Part shown: positions 1,227 through 22,053 of the stretch, one piece after another
Layout of the letters: each line of letters starts with the position of its first letter
Numbering within the stretch: position 1 is the first letter of the stretch
From: Natronobeatus ordinarius
GTDB lineage: Archaea > Halobacteriota > Halobacteria > Halobacteriales > Natrialbaceae
Length of the DNA: 64,000 bases
NCBI RefSeq assembly: GCF_024362485.1
Contig: NZ_CP101456.1
Coordinates: forward strand, 1-64,000
Direction of reading: 5' to 3'
Made by a program: the position numbers and the translations under genes
The notes under the pieces: generated by a model
What the model was told of the DNA's origin: nothing
The model's database searches: none
Seen by the model: the letters and a program-made list of their open reading frames with translations, nothing else

Positions 1227-2690
1227 CTAGGAGAGTGTGTTCACTATCTTTTCCACATCTACTAAACCAAATAAAATGGCTAGCACTCCCCAGACTGCAG
1301 CGCCGAACCCTACGACTGCGAATAACGTAATGAAGCCTGTGATATAACCAGCCGTGGAAAACACGACTAACGACATTACTCCGGTCACGGCAATCGCTTG
1401 CCCAAGTTGGCGAAGTAGCCATTCTACACGGAGGCCAAGTTCTATGTGCATAATGTAGATATTAAAAAGAGCGTAAATTGAAAACGTTATCACGGTCGTT
1501 ATTGCGGCACCAATCACCCCCATCATGGGAATCAAAATCAGGTTTAATCCAAGGTTCAAAACGGCAGTTGTCCCCCTTACAATAGCGCGCTCACGAGCAC
1601 GTCCGAGATAATCTAATCCGTGACTAGTCACCTTCGTTATCGATAACGATACAGCGTAGATCGCAAAGACCTGAACAACTGGAACCGCCCCCGAATAGTC
1701 CGTTCCGAAGATGAGTTCAACAGCCGGTTCAGCGACGAGTATTAGACCAGCAGCTGCTGGAAGGTACAGTAGTAGGCCGTTTGAGAGCGCCATCTCGTAA
1801 ATTCGTGCTGCTCTATCAGCGTTTCCGCTGGCCTTCTGAGAGCCAAAAGTCGGCGAGAGGGTAAATCCCAGCGCACTCATCGGCGTTTCGATAAACTGGA
1901 CGATTTGTTTTCCGAGTGTATAGTACGCAACGCCAACTGGACCAACGAAAAATCCTACAAGAACCGTGTCGATACGCTGATCAATCACGTGAGAAGACTT
2001 CGTGACGGTGAGTGGGGCCGTATACTCCGCAATTCGTCTTCTCAATCCGGGTTCGATTGATGTCGCCTTTGACAGCGAAGTCCCCTTTTTGAAGACGAGG
2101 TACAGACTAGCTACTGCCGCTAATACCATGCTGAGAACGTATCCGGTGAGAGCACCGATCGCTTCGTAACCTAATAGTACAATTACAACAACCAATAATA
2201 ACCGTGAGCCGCTCTTTATTGCGGTAACAGCTGACGACTGTTTAATCTCTTCGAAGCCTTGGAGGGTGAGTTGACCGAATGCGAAGAGAGAACTAAATGC
2301 TATGAACGCACTCCCTATGAGAAGGAATGGGACTAGGTCAGGCTCTCCAAGAAGTGCTGCAATTGAGTGATGAGTGAGAAGTAACCCAATTACAACCACT
2401 ATGATAGTCGTGAGGTTAAGGAGAAACGAGAACCGAAGGATGTGTGGGATTTGCCCAGGATCAGACTCCTTGTATTCCGCGATATAACGGCCAGCAGATC
2501 TATGGACCCCAGATTCTGTTATTAATTGTGCGATGCCGAATATCGACATAGATAAAAATAACAAACCGTACCCATTCGGGGTAAGCATCCGAGTGAGAAA
2601 AACAGTCAAGATCCCACCAGTAAGGACAGTAACAATCTGTGCTCCGAACGCCGCTTTAAACCGGTTGCCTAGCTTTGATGCTAAACTCAT
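1227..2690 (-). CDS. Polysaccharide/lipid-linked oligosaccharide flippase (Wzx/RfbX type)
   Basis: The 487-residue protein has about 12-14 hydrophobic segments and the N-terminal FGAQIVTVLTGG region, followed by TRMLTPNGYGLLFLSMSIFG, typical of the polysaccharide biosynthesis C/Wzx branch of the MVF flippase superfamily. Such proteins move lipid-linked glycans across the membrane. The open frame extends to 2762, but the ATG at 2690 (MSLASKLG) matches where family members usually begin. Neighbours are an asparagine-synthase-like gene and a sugar epimerase, so it probably serves S-layer or exopolysaccharide glycosylation. GC content is lower than the window average, common for horizontally exchanged glycan loci. 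Confidence 0.85.
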   Translation of the reverse strand: MSLASKLGNRFKAAFGAQIVTVLTGGILTVFLTRMLTPNGYGLLFLSMSIFGIAQLITESGVHRSAGRYIAEYKESDPGQIPHILRFSFLLNLTTIIVVVIGLLLTHHSIAALLGEPDLVPFLLIGSAFIAFSSLFAFGQLTLQGFEEIKQSSAVTAIKSGSRLLLVVVIVLLGYEAIGALTGYVLSMVLAAVASLYLVFKKGTSLSKATSIEPGLRRRIAEYTAPLTVTKSSHVIDQRIDTVLVGFFVGPVGVAYYTLGKQIVQFIETPMSALGFTLSPTFGSQKASGNADRAARIYEMALSNGLLLYLPAAAGLILVAEPAVELIFGTDYSGAVPVVQVFAIYAVSLSITKVTSHGLDYLGRARERAIVRGTTAVLNLGLNLILIPMMGVIGAAITTVITFSIYALFNIYIMHIELGLRVEWLLRQLGQAIAVTGVMSLVVFSTAGYITGFITLFAVVGFGAAVWGVLAILFGLVDVEKIVNTLS

Positions 2691-2860
2691 GACATTTGGG
2701 ATATTATAGGTGGTTGTCCACAAATTCGAAACATATGTTGGTGTTTTGTTTAGAAATTGCACATCGGCCGCTCAGAGTCGATTCTTCCAACATCCCCCTC
2801 CAGTTACTCGAAAACCATTTTGTAGCGTCTTCTTGACAGAGGCATCGAAAAACTTGCACA

Positions 2861-4795
2861 TCATTGATTGACTATCTCTGAATGGTTGGAACAGTTTAAA
2901 TTGTCATCTGACGAATTCGAATTCAGCAATGATTGGGTCACTGGGATCGACGTGAACGAAACGAGAGCATACAGATCAGCAAATTTATCGTCTCCATTAA
3001 TATGTCGATCATAAGCGTTCCAGGCGCCCTTCGCATCAATCCATTCGACTATATCTATCATGCTTTCGTGAGTGTTCAAAGTGGTTTCGACGAAATCACG
3101 GTGCCTGATGAGTTCGCTTTGATTCGTCCAAGAACCGTGCGTGTAGTATGGTTTCGGTTTGTTATCGCTCGTAAATTGATCCGCGGCCCAGTTCACGCAC
3201 ATGGCAAGGTATTGAAGAGCGAACGAACGTTTGATGTCAATATTCGTTCCTGCGTGAGCCAGATTGGCAAGATTCACATCAATTTTCTCAACAGACGCAT
3301 TGATCACGTTCTTTCGAAGTCGATACTTGATCGGTAGTTGAGTCATTAACTCTATGAGACGAACGTCGAAAAACGGATTTCGGAACGGTGCCATTTGTTT
3401 CATTACATCGAAGAACAGATGAGTCGCCGGATTTGTGATCGGATAGCATTCACTAAACAGGGCGGCGTCACGAGGGGAACTATAGGTCACTCCGTGGTGG
3501 TCAACGAATCCCTCAGTCTCTGTGATGTTATCCTTGAGAATCGTTTTCAGGTTTGTGTTCAGTTGCAGATATTCGGGCAACGATCCACTAGCCTTCCGGT
3601 TGTGGAATTTTGTTCCAAGATACATCTCGATGAGGTCGCCAACTGTTTCCACTGGCTGCTCTATATACAGTGGAAGCTCCACATCCAGACCTGGTATCGG
3701 GACACCTTTGTATGGTAGATAACTGCGTTTAAACAAAGTGTCGGCGTAATGCCCATTCATCAAAACGTCGCATTCGTTTCTCAGCACGTCTGCGAAGCCG
3801 CTGGCGTGGCCCTGATCGTACCAGCTGATGTAGTTCGAGATTTGCGAGTTGAACTCGAGTGATCGTTCGTGGTAGTCCTCGTCTCGCTCGAGATAGACGA
3901 ACTCGTTCCCCGATATTGCTGCGACCTGGCGAGCGACTTCCATCTCGCGGTTTTCCCAGTCGTTGATGTGATACCCAGTAACTCCCTCATCTTGCAACGC
4001 ACCCATGATCAACCGGGAGTCACTTCCACCACTGAGCAGCACCCCAGTCTCCTTAGCGGAATCGTATCGCTCGGCCACCGCCGACTGAAAGAGTTCGACG
4101 AATCGATCGACGAAATAGTCGAACGACTGGTCGAGCGGCTCGTGAACGGGCCGCCATTGTACATCGACGCTGACTGATCGATCGTCGAGATCGATTTCCG
4201 TGAACGCTCCTGGGTGTCCCCTCTCGACACCATCGATCGGTGTCTTCAGCCCGAGCGACCGTTCGAAGGCGAAATACTCCGCAACATAATCTAAATCGAA
4301 CGAAAGTTCCCCTTCCAGTAGTGAACAGATCGCCTGGATTTGGGTCGAAAAGACGAGTCCGTCGTCGACGAGCGTATAGTGGATCGGACGTGAACCAAGT
4401 CGATCGGTAAAGAACTGAATCGAGTCAGAATCCTGGTCGTAGAGCACACCAACGAAACTCCCGTTGAGGCCGACGATGAACGTTCGACCATGCTCTTCGT
4501 ATAGCCGGGCACAGTACTCGGCCCGAGTGAGATCAGCGGCCCCCTCACGTTTCGAGGTGTACGTCCCGGCGTCGTCGTAGTACCCGTACACCTCTCCCCA
4601 GACCCAGAGGAGTTCCCCCGTCGATTCGACTTCTACGGGCTGTGGCTCAGCGTTGGCAGCATGGGATACAGCTGTGACAAACGCGACCTCGTCGCTGTGT
4701 TCGGTAGACGCTTCATCACCGAAGAAACAGAGCTCGCCAGTAAGCGCTGAAACATCTTGGTCGACATCTCCCACTACGCCCGCGAGGCCTACCAT
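2861..4795 (-). CDS. Asparagine synthase-like protein lacking the glutaminase cysteine
   Basis: The 644-residue protein has an N-terminal Ntn-hydrolase-like domain (residues 1-220, with RTFIVGLNGSFVGVLYD) and a C-terminal ATP-pyrophosphatase domain with the PP-loop SGGSDS at 255-260. Active class II glutamine amidotransferases begin Met-Cys; this one begins MVGLAGVVG, so it should not hydrolyse glutamine and may use ammonia or have another adenylating role. AsnB-like proteins are frequent in archaeal and bacterial glycan clusters, where they may amidate sugar acids; that role is inferred from position between a flippase and an epimerase. Start chosen at the ATG that gives the conserved GLAG opening. 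Confidence 0.8.
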   Translation of the reverse strand: MVGLAGVVGDVDQDVSALTGELCFFGDEASTEHSDEVAFVTAVSHAANAEPQPVEVESTGELLWVWGEVYGYYDDAGTYTSKREGAADLTRAEYCARLYEEHGRTFIVGLNGSFVGVLYDQDSDSIQFFTDRLGSRPIHYTLVDDGLVFSTQIQAICSLLEGELSFDLDYVAEYFAFERSLGLKTPIDGVERGHPGAFTEIDLDDRSVSVDVQWRPVHEPLDQSFDYFVDRFVELFQSAVAERYDSAKETGVLLSGGSDSRLIMGALQDEGVTGYHINDWENREMEVARQVAAISGNEFVYLERDEDYHERSLEFNSQISNYISWYDQGHASGFADVLRNECDVLMNGHYADTLFKRSYLPYKGVPIPGLDVELPLYIEQPVETVGDLIEMYLGTKFHNRKASGSLPEYLQLNTNLKTILKDNITETEGFVDHHGVTYSSPRDAALFSECYPITNPATHLFFDVMKQMAPFRNPFFDVRLIELMTQLPIKYRLRKNVINASVEKIDVNLANLAHAGTNIDIKRSFALQYLAMCVNWAADQFTSDNKPKPYYTHGSWTNQSELIRHRDFVETTLNTHESMIDIVEWIDAKGAWNAYDRHINGDDKFADLYALVSFTSIPVTQSLLNSNSSDDNLNCSNHSEIVNQ

Positions 4796-4904
4796 ACCGG
4801 TGTACTGTCACTACTCCTCAAATATTCGTCGGTTGTGAGCGGCCGTGTCGGCTGACTCTCTTCGTCCGGTGAATTCATTTAGGAGACGTTAGAAATACCA
4901 GCTA

Positions 4905-5867
4905 ATGACTTCCTATCTCGTCACTGGCGTCGCCGGCTTCATCGGCTCGAGTCTCGCTCGCCACCTCCTCGAGCGAGACCACACCGTCTACGGCCTCGAC
5001 AACCTCGAGACGGGCCTCGAGTCGAACCTCGAGGACCTCACCGGGAACTCCAACTTCGAGTTCATAAACGGCGACCTCCGAAACGAAGACGACGTCCGAG
5101 GCGCAGTCGCCGACGCGAGGTACGTCCTCCACCAGGGGGCCGTCCCGTCGGTTCCGCGAAGCGTCGAGGACCCCGTCCTCTCCACCGAAGCCAACTGCAC
5201 GGGCACAGCCAACCTCATCAGCGCCGCCCACGAGGCCGACGTCGAGAAGATCGTCGTCGCCTCCTCGTCGTCCGTCTACGGCCCCACGGAGGTCTCCCCG
5301 AAACGCGAGGATCTCCCAGCGAACCCGGTCTCGCCGTACGCGCTCACGAAGTACTTCACCGAACGGCTCGCCGTCCAGGCCAGCGAGTTCTACGACCTCG
5401 ACTCCGTCGCCCTGCGCTACTTCAACGTCTTCGGCCCCCACCAGAACCCCGAAGGAGACTACGCCGCAGTGATCCCGAAGTTCATCAACCTGATGCTCGA
5501 GGGCGAACAGCCGGTGATCTACGGCGACGGGACCCAGTCGCGAGACTTCACCTACATCGACAACGTGATTCAGGCGAACCTCAACGCAATAGAGTCCGAC
5601 GCGACGGGTGTTGCCCTCAACGCCGGCTGTGGCGACAGTTTCACGATCAACACGCTCGTCGACGAGCTCAACGGCATCCTCGGAACGGAGATCGAGCCGA
5701 TCTACGATGATCCCCGCCCTGGTGACGTCCCCCACTCGAAAGCGGACATCTCGAAGGCACGTGACCTGATCGACTACGAGCCGGCGGTGAGCTTCCGCGA
5801 GGGACTCGAGCGCACCGTCGAACACTTCGCGGACGACCAGACTATCCTCGAGCACGCCGACGACTAA
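4905..5867 (+). CDS. NAD-dependent nucleotide-sugar epimerase/dehydratase (GalE/WbpP-like)
   Basis: The 320-residue protein is an extended short-chain dehydrogenase. It has the NAD-binding motif TGVAGFIG (residues 7-14), an Asp-Asn pair at 32-33, serines at 121-123 and the catalytic YALTK (Tyr145, Lys149). The RYFNVFGPHQNP and YGDGTQSRDF motifs are those of UDP-hexose 4-epimerases acting on UDP-glucose/UDP-GlcNAc type substrates; the exact substrate cannot be read from sequence. It is transcribed away from the flippase/Asn-synthase genes and probably supplies sugar nucleotides to the same pathway. GC is high, unlike the genes at 1-2.7 kb. Confidence 0.9.
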   Translation: MTSYLVTGVAGFIGSSLARHLLERDHTVYGLDNLETGLESNLEDLTGNSNFEFINGDLRNEDDVRGAVADARYVLHQGAVPSVPRSVEDPVLSTEANCTGTANLISAAHEADVEKIVVASSSSVYGPTEVSPKREDLPANPVSPYALTKYFTERLAVQASEFYDLDSVALRYFNVFGPHQNPEGDYAAVIPKFINLMLEGEQPVIYGDGTQSRDFTYIDNVIQANLNAIESDATGVALNAGCGDSFTINTLVDELNGILGTEIEPIYDDPRPGDVPHSKADISKARDLIDYEPAVSFREGLERTVEHFADDQTILEHADD

Positions 5868-6204: not shown

Positions 6205-6468
6205 TTAGTCTTCGTCTCGCTCGAGTTCGCTGACGTCGAGTTCGCCCTCGAGGTACGTCTGGCCCTTCTCGGTCAACTGATACAGGCCAGTGTCGACGGA
6301 TTCTAACAGCCCTGCATCCGTAAGTGCACTACACCGTCTGCTCACGTACTGACGATCGTACTCGATATTCACCGCGAGCACTTTTGGCGAGACTAAGATC
6401 GGGTGCTCGTCGAAAAAGAGCATAATCTCGTAGTCGACAGGAGCCATCCAGGGAACCCGCTCTACCAT
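6205..6468 (-). CDS. Small winged-helix DNA-binding protein (phiH1-repressor-like)
   Basis: This 87-residue protein is a single winged helix: VDYEIMLFFDEH (helix 1), SPKVLAVNIEYDRQYVSRRCSALTD (helices 2-3), then GLLESVDTGLYQLTEKGQTYLEG (wing and last helix). The pattern is that of the haloarchaeal repressor family related to the phiH1 phage repressor and PadR proteins. It is transcribed divergently from the coiled-coil operon at 6702, with a perfect inverted repeat between them, so it probably controls that operon and itself. The second cassette at 15.0 kb has the same layout. ATG at 6468 used; an internal ATG at 6447 is possible. Confidence 0.75.
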   Translation of the reverse strand: MVERVPWMAPVDYEIMLFFDEHPILVSPKVLAVNIEYDRQYVSRRCSALTDAGLLESVDTGLYQLTEKGQTYLEGELDVSELERDED

Positions 6469-6530
6469 CTGTTAGTGAGTTCCCGCCAGCGGTACAGAAA
6501 AGTCAGCACTATCTGTCCAAAGTCTGTATA

Positions 6531-6559
6531 CGAACGTTGTTTTTCTCAGTCAACGTTCG
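6531..6559. promoter_or_regulatory. Inverted repeat, candidate operator
   Basis: Perfect 9-bp arms CGAACGTTG and CAACGTTCG are separated by 11 bp. The site lies in the 233-bp gap between the divergent winged-helix gene and the coiled-coil operon, where an autoregulating repressor would bind. Binding itself is inference. Confidence 0.5.
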
Positions 6560-6701
6560 TTGTTAAGACTTATGTCAATGGAGTGTATGTTCTTCAGTAC
6601 GGAAGCTATACGTGGCTCTCTAAAGCGCTGAGCCACAGAATAGCGGACTGGTGTTTGCCCCACCAGCCCGCGAGTAGCTCCCGTAACCAGCCTACGGAAG
6701 C

Positions 6702-7139
6702 ATGCCAAACGACGATTCACGGGAACCTAAATCTCCCGACCGAACGCGCGAACCGACGACGAAGACAGAGAACGCAGGCGGACTCACCGACGCAGCCCGC
6801 CTCGAGGCCATCGACCGACTCGCGGCGGCCCTACTCGAGCGGACCCAGAGTGGCGACGAAGACCGGCCCGAGTTCACGCGCCATTGCCGTGAGATTCGGG
6901 CCGAAGTCGAGTGTGCACGGCGGGCGCTGTCCGACGCCGATGGGATGGTGCGGGCTCGAGGCGTCGCGACGACGTCGTGTCTCGGCCCGCATCCGGGGAC
7001 GGTCGTCCGCGGGGGCGAGTGCGGAGGGACAGAGAAGAGAAGGGGTGTGCGTGGCGACGAACTCGACGGAGAAGGTGACGACGAGCCCGACGGGGAGCGT
7101 GACGACGAACCCGACGGAGAGGGTACCGATGAGAACTGA
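6702..7139 (+). CDS. Hypothetical protein, first gene of coiled-coil cassette 1
   Basis: A 145-residue, strongly charged protein with no recognised domain. Residues 30-50 form one amphipathic helix (LTDAARLEAIDRLAAALLER). The C-terminus carries a short acidic repeat (two EPDGE-type units within residues 120-142). Its stop overlaps the ATG of the next gene by 11 bases (7129-7139), so the two are translationally linked. The frame of the downstream gene is also open from 6403, but that upstream part reads like non-coding sequence. It has no visible counterpart in cassette 2, whose leading genes are different. Confidence 0.55.
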   Translation: MPNDDSREPKSPDRTREPTTKTENAGGLTDAARLEAIDRLAAALLERTQSGDEDRPEFTRHCREIRAEVECARRALSDADGMVRARGVATTSCLGPHPGTVVRGGECGGTEKRRGVRGDELDGEGDDEPDGERDDEPDGEGTDEN

Positions 7140-8235
7140 CGGCTCGAGTGTCGACGACGCCGGCGAGTCGATCACCCAGGCCAAGCGCCACGAGTCGATC
7201 ACCCAGGCCAAGCGCCACGAGTCGATCACCCAGGCCCAGCGCCACGAGGGGCGCGCGACCCTCGAGCACCGTCTCGACGCCCTCGAGACCCAGGTCGAGG
7301 GGCTCGAGGAGGAACTCGAGCGGAAAGACGACCGAATCGAGAGCCTCGAGGCCGATCGAGCGCGCCTCACCGAGCGGGTGCGGACGCTCGAGGCGTCGGT
7401 GAGCGACCTCGAGTCCACCACCACCGATCTCGAGTCCACCACCGCGAACCTGGAAGACACGACCACGAGCCTCGAGGACAAAACCACCGATCTCGAGGAC
7501 AAAACCACCGATCTCGAGGACAAAACCACCAACCTCGAGCGCCTGACCGAGGCGACCCGCCGGAAGACCAACGCGACGAAGGCCCGGCTGACGGAGCTCC
7601 AGGCGCGCGAGCTCGAGAAGGGGGCGCACCTGCTCGAGACGAACGTCGACGCCCACGAAGTCGACGTCCCCGACGGTCGCCTCGAGCGCATCACGAAGGC
7701 CGACGGCCGACGGTATTACCGGCTGCCCGAACGCGACGATCCGCTCGCCCGCGGGGGCGACGTAACCTGCGCATATGCAGAACTCCTGCCGATCCAGCAG
7801 CTGGCGCGGATGGACGAGACGATGCTGCGGTCGACGGCGAACGCGCTGCCGACGCGGCTCGCCGCGAAGCTCTGGCGAGCACGGACGGATCCGACGGTCG
7901 GCGACGATCCCTGGACCGACGGCTGCAAGGGCGTCGCCGCCTCGGTGAAAGCGAGCGATCTCAAACACTGGATCCGCAGACAGGAGCCGGGGACGAGCGA
8001 CGCCTACGCCAAGAAGCTCGTCTCGAGGACGATCGACGCGATCCTCGAGCTCTCGAGGAATCGCCTCGCGGTTCGCAAGCGAACCGAGCGAAAGAACGGC
8101 CTCGAGTACACCGAACGCCGGCTCGTCCTCCCGGCGGACGCCGAGATTCCGAGTGAGACAGCAACCACGACCGTGGAGAACACAAGAGCGTCCGGAGACA
8201 GCTGGCGTCCGCGGCTGACCAGGGACAGCGACTAG
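7129..8235 (+). CDS. Coiled-coil protein with conserved C-terminal domain, paralogue 1
   Basis: This 368-residue protein begins with three copies of the nonapeptide ESITQAKRH (residues 13-40). A long coiled coil follows (45-150), including the heptad LEDKTTD repeated several times. The C-terminal domain (157-340) aligns without gaps to residues 97-280 of the protein at 16172, with about 146 of 184 positions identical. That domain contains YYRLPE, LLPIQQLARMDE, LAAKLWRARTDP and a helix-then-basic-strand end (TIDAILELS, NRLAVRKR), which could be a winged helix. I do not recognise the family. The final residues differ from paralogue 2 because of a 1-base indel. Start chosen at ATG 7129, overlapping the preceding stop. 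The divergent repressor-like gene suggests a plasmid or viral origin. Confidence 0.7.
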   Translation: MRTDGSSVDDAGESITQAKRHESITQAKRHESITQAQRHEGRATLEHRLDALETQVEGLEEELERKDDRIESLEADRARLTERVRTLEASVSDLESTTTDLESTTANLEDTTTSLEDKTTDLEDKTTDLEDKTTNLERLTEATRRKTNATKARLTELQARELEKGAHLLETNVDAHEVDVPDGRLERITKADGRRYYRLPERDDPLARGGDVTCAYAELLPIQQLARMDETMLRSTANALPTRLAAKLWRARTDPTVGDDPWTDGCKGVAASVKASDLKHWIRRQEPGTSDAYAKKLVSRTIDAILELSRNRLAVRKRTERKNGLEYTERRLVLPADAEIPSETATTTVENTRASGDSWRPRLTRDSD

Positions 8236-8876: not shown

Positions 8877-10611
<1,735 letters not shown>

Positions 10612-10616
10612 CTGTA

Positions 10617-10632
10617 ACCTCACATATGAGGT
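10617..10632. promoter_or_regulatory. Palindrome just upstream of tnpB
   Basis: ACCTCA-CATA-TGAGGT, a 6-bp inverted repeat directly before the tnpB start. It could be a left-end structure of the element or an operator. Confidence 0.4.
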
Positions 10633-11488: not shown

Positions 11489-11622
11489 GTTACGAGCGAG
11501 GAGACGTCGTCATCGCTACGGATCCGTTCAAAGACGAACTCGCTGACCGCGGGAGCAGTCGGAACGTCAGGTTTCTGGATGCTGCTGACCGGGAACGTGA
11601 ACTCGACGCGTTCGATGGCTGA
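11488..11622 (+). pseudogene. PemK/MazF-like toxin remnant
   Basis: The frame immediately after the antitoxin stop reads SYERGDVVIATDPFKDE, the characteristic N-terminus of haloarchaeal PemK/MazF-like toxins. It then loses similarity (LADRGSSRNVRFLDAADREREL) and stops after about 44 codons. No start codon precedes it: the bases around the antitoxin stop read GAGTAAGTTAC, where an overlapping ATG would be expected. The toxin is therefore inactivated by loss of start and body, leaving the antitoxin alone. Confidence 0.65.
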
Positions 11623-11701
11623 GGGAGGACGACGACCGTCGACAGTGACGACTGGACGATCGGAGCCAACAGATAAGTCGAACCGGGACGATAGCTACCG
11701 C

Positions 11702-12148
11702 ATGGCCGACGAGGGACCGACTGCATCGAACGTCCAGTCTGAGGCGATCGATTTCGAGGGGATTCGATCGGTGCTCGCTGACAACGACGTTCAGTACGCC
11801 GTCGTATTCGGATCGGTTGCTCGAGGCGAAGACACGGCGACCTCGGATATTGACCTCTGTCTCCGGTTCTCCGATGACCTTTCCCCGCGAGAACGGTTCG
11901 ATCGACGGAACCGGATCGATTCGGTCGTCCAGCGATACACAACGCAGTTCGTTGACGTAAGTGACGTGGAGGCACTCCCCGACGACGTTGCCTTGAACGC
12001 GCTCCGTGAGGGGGTCGTGATCTATGGCAACGAGACGATGAAAGCGACGGATGAACAGCGCCTAACGGACCGCGTGAGGAGCTCGAAAGACGAACACACC
12101 CGGGAGCGTCGTGAGTTCATCGATCGACTCGCTGAAGGAAACGTCTGA
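11702..12148 (+). CDS. mntA: MntA-type nucleotidyltransferase antitoxin
   Basis: A 148-residue minimal nucleotidyltransferase: FGSVARGEDTATSDIDL (Gly37-Ser38, Asp49, Asp51 are the catalytic signature), followed by a strand with QFVDVSDVEALPDDV. In characterised MntA/HepT modules the nucleotidyltransferase AMPylates and blocks the HEPN ribonuclease. hepT follows after 5 bases but is interrupted by a MITE. The C-terminal helix SKDEHTRERREFIDRLAEG is complete. A near-identical but truncated second copy lies at 19195. ATG 11702 chosen because homology with that copy starts here; the open frame extends upstream to 11579 without similarity. Confidence 0.9.
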   Translation: MADEGPTASNVQSEAIDFEGIRSVLADNDVQYAVVFGSVARGEDTATSDIDLCLRFSDDLSPRERFDRRNRIDSVVQRYTTQFVDVSDVEALPDDVALNALREGVVIYGNETMKATDEQRLTDRVRSSKDEHTRERREFIDRLAEGNV

Positions 12149-15964: not shown

Positions 15965-16179
15965 GCCGCGGATTCGAACTGCAGTGGACGCCCAGACACG
16001 GCGCGACACGAAAGCTCGTCTTCGAGCCCCAACCCGACGGCGAGTATCCGTGGGCTCGCCTCGAGTTCGAACGCCGTGACACTCGGTGGCGTCAGGTCGG
16101 CGTCGAATATCTCACGGAGATCACGGTCACCCCAGATCCGACTCGAGCGCTCCGAGACGGAGGTGAGGACGATGAGTAG
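15961..16179 (+). CDS. Hypothetical protein, third gene of cassette 2
   Basis: A 72-residue protein of unknown family, probably beta-sheet (FELQWTPRHG, RKLVFEPQP, WARLEFERRD, WRQVGVEYLTEITVTPD). It overlaps both neighbours: its ATG sits in the stop of the 35-residue gene, and its stop overlaps the ATG at 16172 by 8 bases. Confidence 0.6.
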   Translation: MSRGFELQWTPRHGATRKLVFEPQPDGEYPWARLEFERRDTRWRQVGVEYLTEITVTPDPTRALRDGGEDDE

Positions 16180-17080
16180 CCACACAGAACCTGAGGACCT
16201 CGAGGACCTCCTCGAGGCGGTTACCCACCTCCGGAAACAAAACGAGCGACTCCTCGAGCGCGTCGACGACCTCGAGTGTGACCTCGAAGAGACCGAGCAC
16301 AACCTCGAGACACTCGAGAGCGAACACGAGACGCTGCAGCAAACCAACGACCACCTTCGCGACCGCCTCGAAGCGTGTGAGCGAGATCTCACGCGAGTCG
16401 ATGCGCTCACGGATGCGGCACGCAAGCGATCGGGCGTGAACAAACAGCGGATCGAAGAGCTCCAGGCGCGCGAACTCGAGAAAGGAGCCCATCTCCGCGA
16501 GCCGAACGTCGACGCACACGAGATCGACGTCGACGGCGGTCGCCTCGAGCAACTCACCAAAGCCGACGGCCACACCTATTACCGGCTGCCCGAGCAGGCC
16601 GACCCACTCGAGCGTGGGGGGACCGTCACACTCGCCCATAGTGACTTACTCCCGATTCAGCAGCTCGCCCGGATGGACGAGGAGATGCTTCGTTCGACGT
16701 CCAACTCACTGCCGACGCGACTCGCTGCGAAGCTCTGGCGAGCACGGACGGATCCGAGTATCGGCGACAACCCGTGGGAACGGGGATGTAAGGATATCGC
16801 AGAATTCGTCAAGGCAAGCGATCTCAAACACTGGATCCGCAGACAGGAGCCGGGGACGAGCGAGACCTACGCGAAGAAACTCGTCTCGCGGACGATCGAC
16901 GCCATGCTCGAGCTCTCGACGAACCGGCTGGCCGTGCGCAAACGTCGGGAACGAAAGAACGGCCTCGAGTGCACCGAACGCCGACTGATCCTCCCCGCGG
17001 ACGTCGATATTCCGGGTGAGACAGCAACCACGACCGCGGAGAACACAACGCGTCCGGAGACAGCTGGCGTCCGCGGCTAA
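16172..17080 (+). CDS. Coiled-coil protein with conserved C-terminal domain, paralogue 2
   Basis: A 302-residue protein with a coiled coil (residues 8-95; heptads such as LEDLLEAV, LLERVDDLECDLEE) and the same C-terminal domain as the protein at 7129 (residues 97-280 aligned without gaps to 157-340 there). Shared landmarks are LQARELEKGAH, NVDAHE.DV, YYRLPE, LLPIQQLARMDE, KLWRARTDP and SDLKHWIRRQEPGTS. The strong conservation of this domain beside divergent coiled coils suggests that the domain carries the function and the coil sets oligomer length. The frame is open from 16076, but ATG 16172 fits the operon overlaps. Its last ten residues differ from paralogue 1 through a 1-base indel. Confidence 0.7.
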   Translation: MSSHTEPEDLEDLLEAVTHLRKQNERLLERVDDLECDLEETEHNLETLESEHETLQQTNDHLRDRLEACERDLTRVDALTDAARKRSGVNKQRIEELQARELEKGAHLREPNVDAHEIDVDGGRLEQLTKADGHTYYRLPEQADPLERGGTVTLAHSDLLPIQQLARMDEEMLRSTSNSLPTRLAAKLWRARTDPSIGDNPWERGCKDIAEFVKASDLKHWIRRQEPGTSETYAKKLVSRTIDAMLELSTNRLAVRKRRERKNGLECTERRLILPADVDIPGETATTTAENTTRPETAGVRG

Positions 17081-19137: not shown

Positions 19138-19194
19138 TCCTGGGCGTGCACCCACCGCAAACTGATAAGACAAACCGAGACGATAGGTAACGTA

Positions 19195-19674
19195 TTGCCC
19201 AACGAAGGACCTACTGTGTCGGACGTCCAGTCAGATGCGACCGATCTCGAGGCAATTCGATCGGTGCTCGCTGACAACGACGTTCGGTACGCCATCGTAT
19301 TCGGATCGGTTGCTCGAGGCGAAGACACGGCTACCTCGGATATCGACCTCTGTCTCCGGTTCTCCGATGACCTTTCCCCGCGAGAACGGTTCGATCGACG
19401 GAACCGGATCGATTCGGTCGTCCAGCGATACGCAACGCAGTTCGTCGACGTAAGTGATCTGGAGGCAATCCCCGACGACGTTGCCTTGAACGCGCTCCGT
19501 GATGGGGTCGTGATCTATGGCAACGAGACGACGAAAGATACGGATGAACAGCACGTGAACTACTCCGCCCTACTCGCCTGCTCGTTCCCGCTTAGCTTCG
19601 CTCCGCTCAGTCACGGAAGATCGAAGAGCTTCCGAACGACCCCGAGGCTTCTCCCTTCCCGCAGTTCACAGTAG
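19195..19674 (+). pseudogene. Truncated second copy of mntA
   Basis: Nearly identical to the intact mntA at 11702 for 118 residues (about 16 differences), retaining GSVARGEDTATSDIDL. After TDEQ (19546) it runs into unrelated sequence (HVNYSALLACSF...) until a chance stop at 19674, so the C-terminal helix is lost. The start is TTG where the intact copy has ATG. No hepT follows. The nucleotidyltransferase core could still fold, but without a toxin partner it is probably a relic of a duplication. Confidence 0.75.
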
Positions 19675-20069: not shown

Positions 20070-20602
20070 TCGACGGGCTGATCGAGACCAGCCGCCCCAT
20101 CTCGGGGACTGAGCGATCGTTTCGATTCGCCACAGCTATTCATTTCTCACACAATCCACTAGTAAGATTTCATTTCCTGCCGTGCCTGTCGTCCTCATGT
20201 CTCGTCTGCGGAGATGAACGCCGACCGATCCACCGAGGACGACGCCGTGCCCGGGTGAACCGTCACGATAACGACGACGATCGAACCAGTGGATTGCTCG
20301 AGGGCGGCCGGATCAGGCGCGACCCAGCTCCAGGGCTATCACATCACCTCGGTCGGCTGTTCTGACTGATTGACGGTATCGAGTGCGGAGACGTCGGTCG
20401 TCCTGCCCCGAACACGGACTGTCGCCCGTACGGATCGCATTCGAACCCTGTCAGGCAGGAATCGACCAGCAGTCGCGTAATTGTTCTGTTCACGGATTCT
20501 CTTGGAAATAGTCATCTCGTGCTGATCATCAGCCTCATCGGTAGTTGAACATGCAGCCATTCGGTTTACCCTTCACGCCCGTCTGAAGTTTCACTTGCAG
20601 GC
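20070..20602 (+). other. Intergenic stretch, no convincing gene
   Basis: About 530 bases. A 73-codon minus-strand frame (20339-20560) has no family resemblance and an Arg-rich random look. The last part must hold the promoter of the acidic secreted protein. Confidence 0.4.
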
Positions 20603-22018
20603 ATGAGTGCACAACAGCTGATAGCCGTCACCCTGGCGCTGATTATGCTGGCGTCGGGCTTCGCCGCAGCGGGTGCGGCGGCCCCGGGCGCAGCCAACGT
20701 GACGGACGAACACGACGAACAGGGCGAAGAGATCCACGTAACGATCGAACAGGCGACGATCTTCGTGATCCACGAGGACCACGTCGATGACGAACACGAC
20801 GTCGACGCCGAAGACGAGGCGGCGACCGACGCGGAGGATGACGCCGGAGCGGAAGACGATGAAGAACTCGACGCGGAGGATGACGCCCTCGACGAGACCG
20901 ATGAACTGAACGACGTCGACGCCGAGGACGTCGAGCGCTACGACGACGTCACCATCGAGGTGACCCTCGAGATGGCGGAGTTCGTCAGCCTCGATGCGGT
21001 CGACGAGCACGCGGATGAGGCCGACGCACCTGCTGAGGACGACGATGCCCTCGACGAGGACGACGCCGTTGACGAGGAAGATGACGCTCTCGACGAGGAC
21101 GACGAGCTGAACGACAACGATGTCGCCGAGGATCGTGAGGTGACCATCGACCACGCGACCGTCTTCGTCGTCGTGGACGGCCCCGTCGACGAACTCGATG
21201 ACGAGGACGTCAACGACAACGACGTCGAAACGAACGCGGACGATGCCCTCGACGAGGAAGATGACGCCCTCGACGAGGACGACGCTATGGGCGAGGAAGA
21301 TGACGCCCTCGACGAGGACGATGCCGTTGACGAGGAAGATGACGCTCTCGACGAGGACGACGATGCCATGGACGACGACGAGGTGAACGACCTCGACGAG
21401 GACCGCATCGACCACGCGACCATCTTCGTCGTCGTTGACCACGAGCCGGTCGACGATAACGATGCCCTCGACGAGGACGACGCCGTTGACGAGGAAGACG
21501 ACGCCCTCGACGAGGAAAATGACGCAATAGACGAGGACGACGCCGTTGACGAGGAAGACGATGCCCTCGACGAGGAGGATGACGCCGTTGACGAGGACGA
21601 CGCCGTTGACGAGGAAAATGACGTCGACGACGCCCTCGATCTGACCATCGAGCAGGCGACCATCATCGTTTACGCTGACGAGACGTTCGACGACCTGACC
21701 GACCTCGACGAGGAGAATGCCATGGACGAGGATGACGCCCTCGACGAAGAAGACGACGCCGTTGACGAGGATGATGCCCTCGACGAAGAAGACGATGCCA
21801 TGGACGAAGACGACGCCCTCGACGAGGACCGGATTGACGTGACCATCGAGCAGGCGACCATCTACGTCTTCGCCGACGAACCCGTCGACGAACCCGTCGA
21901 CGAACCCGTCGACGACGTGGCGGACGATGACACGACCGACGAGAACAACGACGTGAACGACGACGCGAACGACGACGACGGCCAGGCCAGCCTGCAAGCC
22001 ACCTCCTGCGCCTGCTAA
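20603..22018 (+). CDS. Secreted, extremely acidic repeat protein
   Basis: A 471-residue protein with a Sec-type signal peptide (residues 1-28, LIAVTLALIMLASGFAAAG). The mature part is dominated by Asp, Glu and Ala in tandem units such as DALDEEDDAVDED. Six hydrophobic beta-like motifs interrupt it at regular distances: VTIEQATIFVI (46-56), 116-128, VTIDHATVFVV (180-190), 269-278, 348-357 and VTIEQATIYVF (413-423). There is no Lys or Trp, only four Arg, and the only cysteines are in the terminal Cys-Ala-Cys. Such a chain would bind many divalent cations or hydrate a surface layer; this is inference. The repeats also exist at DNA level, so length may vary between strains. No known family recognised. 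Confidence 0.8.
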   Translation: MSAQQLIAVTLALIMLASGFAAAGAAAPGAANVTDEHDEQGEEIHVTIEQATIFVIHEDHVDDEHDVDAEDEAATDAEDDAGAEDDEELDAEDDALDETDELNDVDAEDVERYDDVTIEVTLEMAEFVSLDAVDEHADEADAPAEDDDALDEDDAVDEEDDALDEDDELNDNDVAEDREVTIDHATVFVVVDGPVDELDDEDVNDNDVETNADDALDEEDDALDEDDAMGEEDDALDEDDAVDEEDDALDEDDDAMDDDEVNDLDEDRIDHATIFVVVDHEPVDDNDALDEDDAVDEEDDALDEENDAIDEDDAVDEEDDALDEEDDAVDEDDAVDEENDVDDALDLTIEQATIIVYADETFDDLTDLDEENAMDEDDALDEEDDAVDEDDALDEEDDAMDEDDALDEDRIDVTIEQATIYVFADEPVDEPVDEPVDDVADDDTTDENNDVNDDANDDDGQASLQATSCAC

Positions 22019-22036: not shown

Positions 22037-22053
22037 GTATCCGTTTTTTTGAC
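22037..22053 (+). terminator. T-rich transcription terminator
   Basis: A run of seven T (GGTATCCGTTTTTTTGACG) 25-35 bases after the acidic protein gene, typical of archaeal termination. Confidence 0.5.

Follow-up and report, generated by a model that had tools for sequence, protein, structure and literature searches.

In Pseudomonas FapC, repeats are joined by linkers of approximately 30–260 residues, Asn/Gln residues are conserved, and a CxxC motif lies outside the fibre core (PMC12392863, PMC6173800). Among haloarchaea, halomucin of Haloquadratum walsbyi is a secreted, Asp-rich protein that has been proposed to form a hydrated coat (PMC1544339). Congo red and thioflavin T stain the biofilms of Haloferax, the responsible protein not being established (PMC4180959). 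This analysis concerns a haloarchaeal gene found in the first 64,000 nucleotides of Natronobeatus ordinarius contig NZ_CP101456.1; this whole stretch is referred to as the window.

The window protein and its family

The gene (20603–22018, forward strand, as are all features of the gene given below) begins with ATG and, from the open reading frame list and its homologues, encodes a secreted acidic six-motif protein of 471 amino acids. The precursor contains 144 Asp, 76 Glu, four Arg and two Cys residues and neither Lys nor Trp; Asp and Glu make up 47 % of the precursor and 49 % of the chain past residue 26, His and Gly number nine and eight, respectively, and the computed pI is 4.05. Residues 1 to ~30 (20603–20692) form a plausible signal peptide, consisting of a hydrophobic core and AAAPGA; the n-region is neutral, with no positively charged side chain ahead of the hydrophobic core, the same N-terminus is kept in the alignment of homologues, and residues 3–17 are modelled as a helix. 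Beyond it, VTDEHD (20699–20716) matches a V-D-E-H-D stretch that, in the N-terminal alignment, is common downstream of the signal peptide. A T7 tract past the stop codon (22044–22050) is a possible transcription terminator. The first-pass annotation, made from the DNA letters, had described a secreted protein of regular design, and its open reading frame coordinates, signal peptide, acidic make-up, lack of Lys and Trp, four Arg residues, motifs and SCAC end were all confirmed. No Pfam or NCBIfam model matches the protein at E values up to 1.

With the whole window protein as the query, matches were obtained in 26 out of 125 Natrialbaceae genomes. A profile built from an alignment of 17 N-termini matches approximately 94 of 101 Natrialbaceae genomes in a class-wide sample (E up to 1e-3), a figure counted by hand from the match listing, the weak matches of which were read only in part; the source genus is represented by a single genome. 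The window protein, itself one of the sequences in this profile, matches it at E 5e-24. The best match outside the Natrialbaceae has an E value of 2.6e-7, and no protein of the family was present at the five outside loci that were read. A narrower N-terminal alignment search named members in Natronococcus, Natronoglomus and one Natrialbaceae metagenome-assembled genome. Plasmid-borne members occur in Haloterrigena, Natronorubrum and Halostagnicola, where they are annotated as hypothetical proteins; the plasmid search gave seven matches with a DUF7282-class relative as the query and none with a window-type N-terminus.

These sequence comparisons suggest an unnamed family that is present in most of the Natrialbaceae sampled and has so far been seen only there. 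No description of it was found in the open-access literature and, despite its presence in nearly all of the sampled Natrialbaceae, the records read give its members no annotation beyond hypothetical protein. The search for the six-motif pattern in Halobacteria, suggested by the first-pass annotation, returned homologues with preserved motifs across the Natrialbaceae. Therefore, of the two findings which that annotation held would count against it, the lack of any such homologue falls away.

Two classes are apparent within the family. In window-type proteins, the signal peptide is accompanied by motifs, of which many proteins carry five, by acidic linkers and, in many cases, by a terminal Cys. 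Proteins of the second class additionally contain DUF7282 (E 1e-44) and, frequently, CARDB (E 6e-7), with a motif number that is mostly zero, one, three or six. The V-D-E-H-D stretch is shared by both classes. The source genome contains a three-motif relative with CARDB (L061, G000:C1:2543305).

Motifs, linkers and the terminal cysteine

The family motif spans 16 positions, LEVTIEQATIFVVVED, of which I2, F8, I7, Q4, T6 and A5 are the best conserved. At a score of 7, its profile finds 281 sites in the fetched proteins, against 0.4 expected from shuffles; the profile was trained on the same family and the shuffles control for composition only. In the window protein, five motifs are recognized by the profile: M1 (IHVTIEQATIFVIHED, 20732–20779, 46–47 bits), M3 (REVTIDHATVFVVVDG, 21134–21181, 37–38 bits), M4 (DEDRIDHATIFVVVDH, 21395–21442, 26–28 bits), M5 (LDLTIEQATIIVYADE, 21635–21682, 35–37 bits) and M6 (IDVTIEQATIYVFADE, 21833–21880, 40 bits). 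The first half of M4 is altered, as it is in L068 (DDEQLERATIFVFIGD). The remaining motif, M2 (IEVTLEMAEFVSLDAV, 20954–21001), has the degenerate core IEVTLEMAEFVSL and was placed by hand; its counterpart in L068 is LDVTIQQADMVDLGED. The motif cores start at residues 46, 120, 180, 267, 347 and 413, giving spacings of 74, 60, 87, 80 and 66 residues. The six evenly placed motifs that had been claimed for the window protein are thus present, M2 by hand placement, whereas across the family the spacing ranges from 22 to 271 residues. A strictly parallel strand order, considered on the basis of minimum linker length, was dropped because the shortest spacing is 22 residues.

Between the motifs lie five acidic linkers: linker 1 (20780–20953), recognized by composition and disordered in the model; linker 2 (21002–21133), defined by repeat search and composition; and linkers 3 (21182–21394), 4 (21443–21634) and 5 (21683–21832), each a tandem DNA repeat found by repeat search. 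A C-terminal acidic tail (21881–22003) follows M6 and includes exact 12 nt repeats encoding EPVD three times (21874–21915, period 12, 3.5 copies, 100 % match). The linker DNA is built on tandem repeats of 12, 18, 21, 39 and 60 bases, with 9.8 copies of the period of 39, 2.6 of the period of 60 and the 3.5 of the period of 12 just described.

Motif number reaches six at most; seven were counted in two proteins, both at a relaxed score. Near-identical motif copies are present within single proteins (L062, L076 and L077), therefore duplication does occur, although the ceiling of six stands. Motif order was compared over the 720 permutations of motif pairing, two positions (M2 in the window protein, M4 in L069–L071) having been set by hand. 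Collinear pairing ranks first of 720 with both L068 and L066 and 2–6 of 720 with L069–L071, whereas the test is not significant against L072 (424 of 720), L063 (169 of 720) or L067.

Four orthologue pairs separate the motifs from the linkers clearly, the motifs containing 0, 0, 1 and 0 gap columns and the linkers 19, 75, 92 and 97. Linker dN/dS in these pairs is 0.24, 0.08, 0.19 and 0.17, with dS possibly inflated by repeat misalignment; motif dN/dS in the same pairs is 0.84, 0.32, 0 and 0.04, values behind which there are very few changes. Linker composition is kept among relatives while sequence and length change, and each lineage has repeat units of its own (DALDEEDDAVDED, DNGVDDA, EEPVDEEP and DDNESDTGVGT). 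The length change that had been predicted from the DNA repeats is therefore real between relatives, orthologues differing in length through linker insertions and deletions.

AlphaFold2 models of the window protein (seven sequences) and L105 (eight sequences), which share most of their alignment, have mean pLDDT values of 45.5 and 46.7, respectively, and a pTM of 0.34 in each case. Strands of approximately 12–15 residues, of which two are split into two pieces, are modelled at five motifs in the window protein (M1, M3, M4, M5 and M6, with no strand at M2 in model 1) and at six in L105. pLDDT is mostly 53–75 in the motif blocks, and the linkers are disordered and mostly below 50. At this low confidence, the models give only hints that the motifs may be strands and the linkers disordered. 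Foldseek found no match to the L105 model in the PDB.

The window protein ends in SCAC (22004–22015), a CxC in which Cys is the last residue. Comparison of 23 window-type proteins places Cys as the final residue in 14, and one more has CxC two residues before its end. This Cys is usually the only one in the mature chain or else belongs to a CxC, as in L068 (HCTC), L075 (SCSC), L079 (SCSCTG) and L095 (ACHC). The Cys-Ala-Cys end that had been pointed out is therefore present and its terminal Cys recurs, but not throughout, since nine of the 23 lack it; the DUF7282 class is likewise without it. The archaeosortase (PGF-CTERM) tripartite signal with its transmembrane helix is absent from the window protein, the C-terminus of which is the acidic tail ending in LQATSCAC.

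Upstream element and genomic surroundings

Comparison of upstream regions identified an element, GAAATGGTT-N5-GGTTTAT or a variant of this, approximately 61 nt upstream of the ATG and common to 72 loci; many window-type genes bear the variant GAAATGGCAGTMCCAGTTTAAG. When 61 genomes were searched with GNAATGGTTNNNNNGGTTTAT, allowing one mismatch, 34 sites were found in 33 genomes, 30 of which lie approximately 59–65 nt upstream of the ATG of a family gene, as judged from coordinates or by reading. The four other matches equal in number the sites found with a reversed control pattern, and the three that were read are unrelated. Sites of the element also revealed family members missing from the N-terminal profile matches. 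The element thus appears to be family-specific and almost absent elsewhere in the genomes searched. Like the ceiling on motif number and the DUF7282/CARDB class, it had escaped the first-pass annotation. The upstream comparison and the element search place a degenerate copy before the window gene (20544–20570), which retains only the TATA-like right half (GGTTTACC, 20563–20570), well kept and ending 32 nt before the ATG, with GTTGAACATG (20544–20553) as a remnant of the left half.

An inverted repeat, TGCC-N5-GGCA, is present from about −19 to −4 relative to the ATG in L067, L084, L116 and other DUF7282-class genes; its loop is variable and its outer pair varies, and it is a candidate hairpin or operator. 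As a common RNA hairpin of the family it was rejected. Upstream stem scores over all genes are modestly higher than in shuffles (12.3 against 10.2) and conservation of the repeat is confined to the DUF7282 class plus a small number of relatives, therefore no hairpin is claimed for the window gene.

The window gene neighbours a nucleotidyltransferase fragment and a pyridoxamine-phosphate-oxidase-like gene (Pfam), and no gene that would assist assembly or export was found next to it. Ten window-type loci lie between the phosphoenolpyruvate carboxykinase gene and a pair of genes that we take, from their sequences, to be cutA and rpl11. The window gene is not at this locus, the cutA of its own genome being at 2.35 Mb. 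DUF7282-class genes adjoin DUF7344 and DUF7343 helix-turn-helix genes. In L148 (pHTUR04) and L149, for example, the DUF7282-class gene lies between an upstream helix-turn-helix gene and a convergent regulator (DUF7343 and DUF7344, respectively, in L148), with a sugar-nucleotide epimerase nearby and identical gene order in the two genera.

Elsewhere in the window, a polysaccharide flippase, an asparagine-synthase-like protein and a sugar epimerase form a surface polysaccharide or glycosylation cluster (1227–5867), which is followed by a TnpB-like gene (9355–10623). Two nucleotidyltransferase ORFs (11579–12145 and 19138–19671) are 84 % identical over 121 aa, the second seemingly cut off at its end. 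Two further ORFs are similar to each other (6403–8235 and 16076–17080), having in common ELQARELEKGAHL...NVDAHE and a long C-terminal part; the ORF at 16076–17080 has no Pfam match.

Proposed function and comparison with known systems

Three features, namely fixed motifs set among freely varying acidic linkers, a motif number that stops at six and a Cys at the C-terminus, suggest that the window protein is secreted and has a structural role at the cell surface or in the matrix, its beta core carrying acidic loops that are hydrated. This reading is given about an even chance of being correct. The chain would be exported through Sec. Its motifs would pair as beta strands, forming one small core per molecule or stacking between molecules, while the linkers would protrude as hydrated, cation-rich polyanionic loops that remain in solution at molar salt. 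Chains may be joined by a disulphide, or the protein anchored, through the terminal Cys, which is usually the sole one. On sequence grounds, the products of the family may be part of the outer coat or biofilm matrix of the Natrialbaceae.

A functional amyloid, by analogy with FapC, is a distinctly less probable reading. The motifs would then stack in register across molecules to give cross-beta fibres that have a fuzzy acidic outer layer and are cross-linked through the terminal Cys. The near-identical short strands, V-I-Q-T-F-V ladders, conserved Gln, variable linkers and C-terminal Cys are consistent with such a design, as is the dye staining of Haloferax biofilms, although Haloferax does not belong to the Natrialbaceae, to which these genes have been traced. 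The very high net charge of the protein and the lack of chaperone, nucleator or exporter genes near the window gene argue against it, as does the motif ceiling, since a limit of six would not be expected of most open-ended fibres. It is correspondingly unlikely that archaea have here a dedicated functional amyloid or cross-beta protein of the matrix, with a family-specific promoter, a core of up to six strands and a C-terminal Cys as cross-link or anchor; if they did, the haloarchaeal matrix would gain a candidate protein component.

It is improbable that, as the first-pass annotation had suggested among its possible roles, the protein is a divalent-cation reservoir or interacts with minerals, with Ca or Mg bound by the acidic linkers and the motifs merely acting as spacers. 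The acidity of the mature chain, the nine His residues and the kept linker composition would fit, but the conserved motifs and the ceiling of six would be left unexplained and the charge would be screened in brine. Neither Pfam nor NCBIfam matched the window protein to a metal-binding family, EF-hand and RTX included, and no RTX GGxGxDxxx nonapeptides are present. The cutA gene beside ten relatives also adjoins rpl11 and seems to be simple synteny.

Anchoring of an acidic brush at the surface, with the CxC or Cys end lipid-modified, as in the CxC of Rab, or disulphide-bonded to the envelope, is very doubtful. The exact terminal position of Cys in 14 of the 23 proteins speaks for it; however, nine lack it, disulphide linkage fits the same facts, and the literature searched gave no case of an exported archaeal protein lipidated at its C-terminus. 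A functionless low-complexity frame arising from tandem GAC/GTC repeats, to which the tandem DNA repeats and a long minus-strand mirror frame might point, is hardly credible and is refuted by the homologue searches, in which Natrialbaceae proteins keep the signal peptide, motifs and terminal Cys, by the purifying selection seen in orthologue dN/dS and by the common upstream element. A protease-activated antimicrobial precursor like HFX_0892 (PMC12893001) was also rejected, as that protein has an alpha-helical active part and the two showed no visible likeness.

Under the favoured reading as a secreted structural protein, the clean separation of the conserved signal, motifs and end from the free linkers means that simple mutants can probe what holds haloarchaeal surfaces and biofilms together, and the family may show how a sticker-and-spacer protein is constructed for saturated brine.

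Among known proteins, those that haloarchaea secrete and that carry DUF7282 (PF23951) and CARDB (PF07705), such as HTUR_RS27775 of Haloterrigena turkmenica (pHTUR04; annotated as hypothetical), are homologous, sharing the kind of signal peptide, VDEHD, the motif and the upstream element, the last in degenerate form before the window gene. Unlike these, the window protein has neither DUF7282 nor CARDB by Pfam and ends in CxC, and the DUF7282 class often has fewer motifs. Haloarchaeal proteins outside the family, represented by L097, contain short T-[IV]-E-N-A-T-[IV] units (VTIENATI-type) that resemble the motif and may be distantly related to it; these units are contiguous rather than spaced in the same manner by long acidic linkers. 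Halomucin, set beside the window protein without direct alignment, differs in its 9,159 aa and mucin-like domains. The likeness to FapC lies in the imperfect short repeats, the linkers of variable length (here with a spacing of 22–271 residues) and the conserved repeat Gln. A Cys motif outside the repeats may be a further parallel, being CxxC in FapC and CxC or a terminal Cys in most, not all, window-type proteins. No Pfam or NCBIfam model for FapC was matched and no fapA–F partners are among the neighbours read. The repeats are of 16 rather than 35–40 residues and number up to six rather than usually three, the linkers of the window protein are acidic, and the protein is archaeal. Compared here from sequence alone, the window protein would therefore resemble FapC in design without being a member, and the proposed architecture would be a FapC-like sticker-and-spacer rebuilt for high salt.
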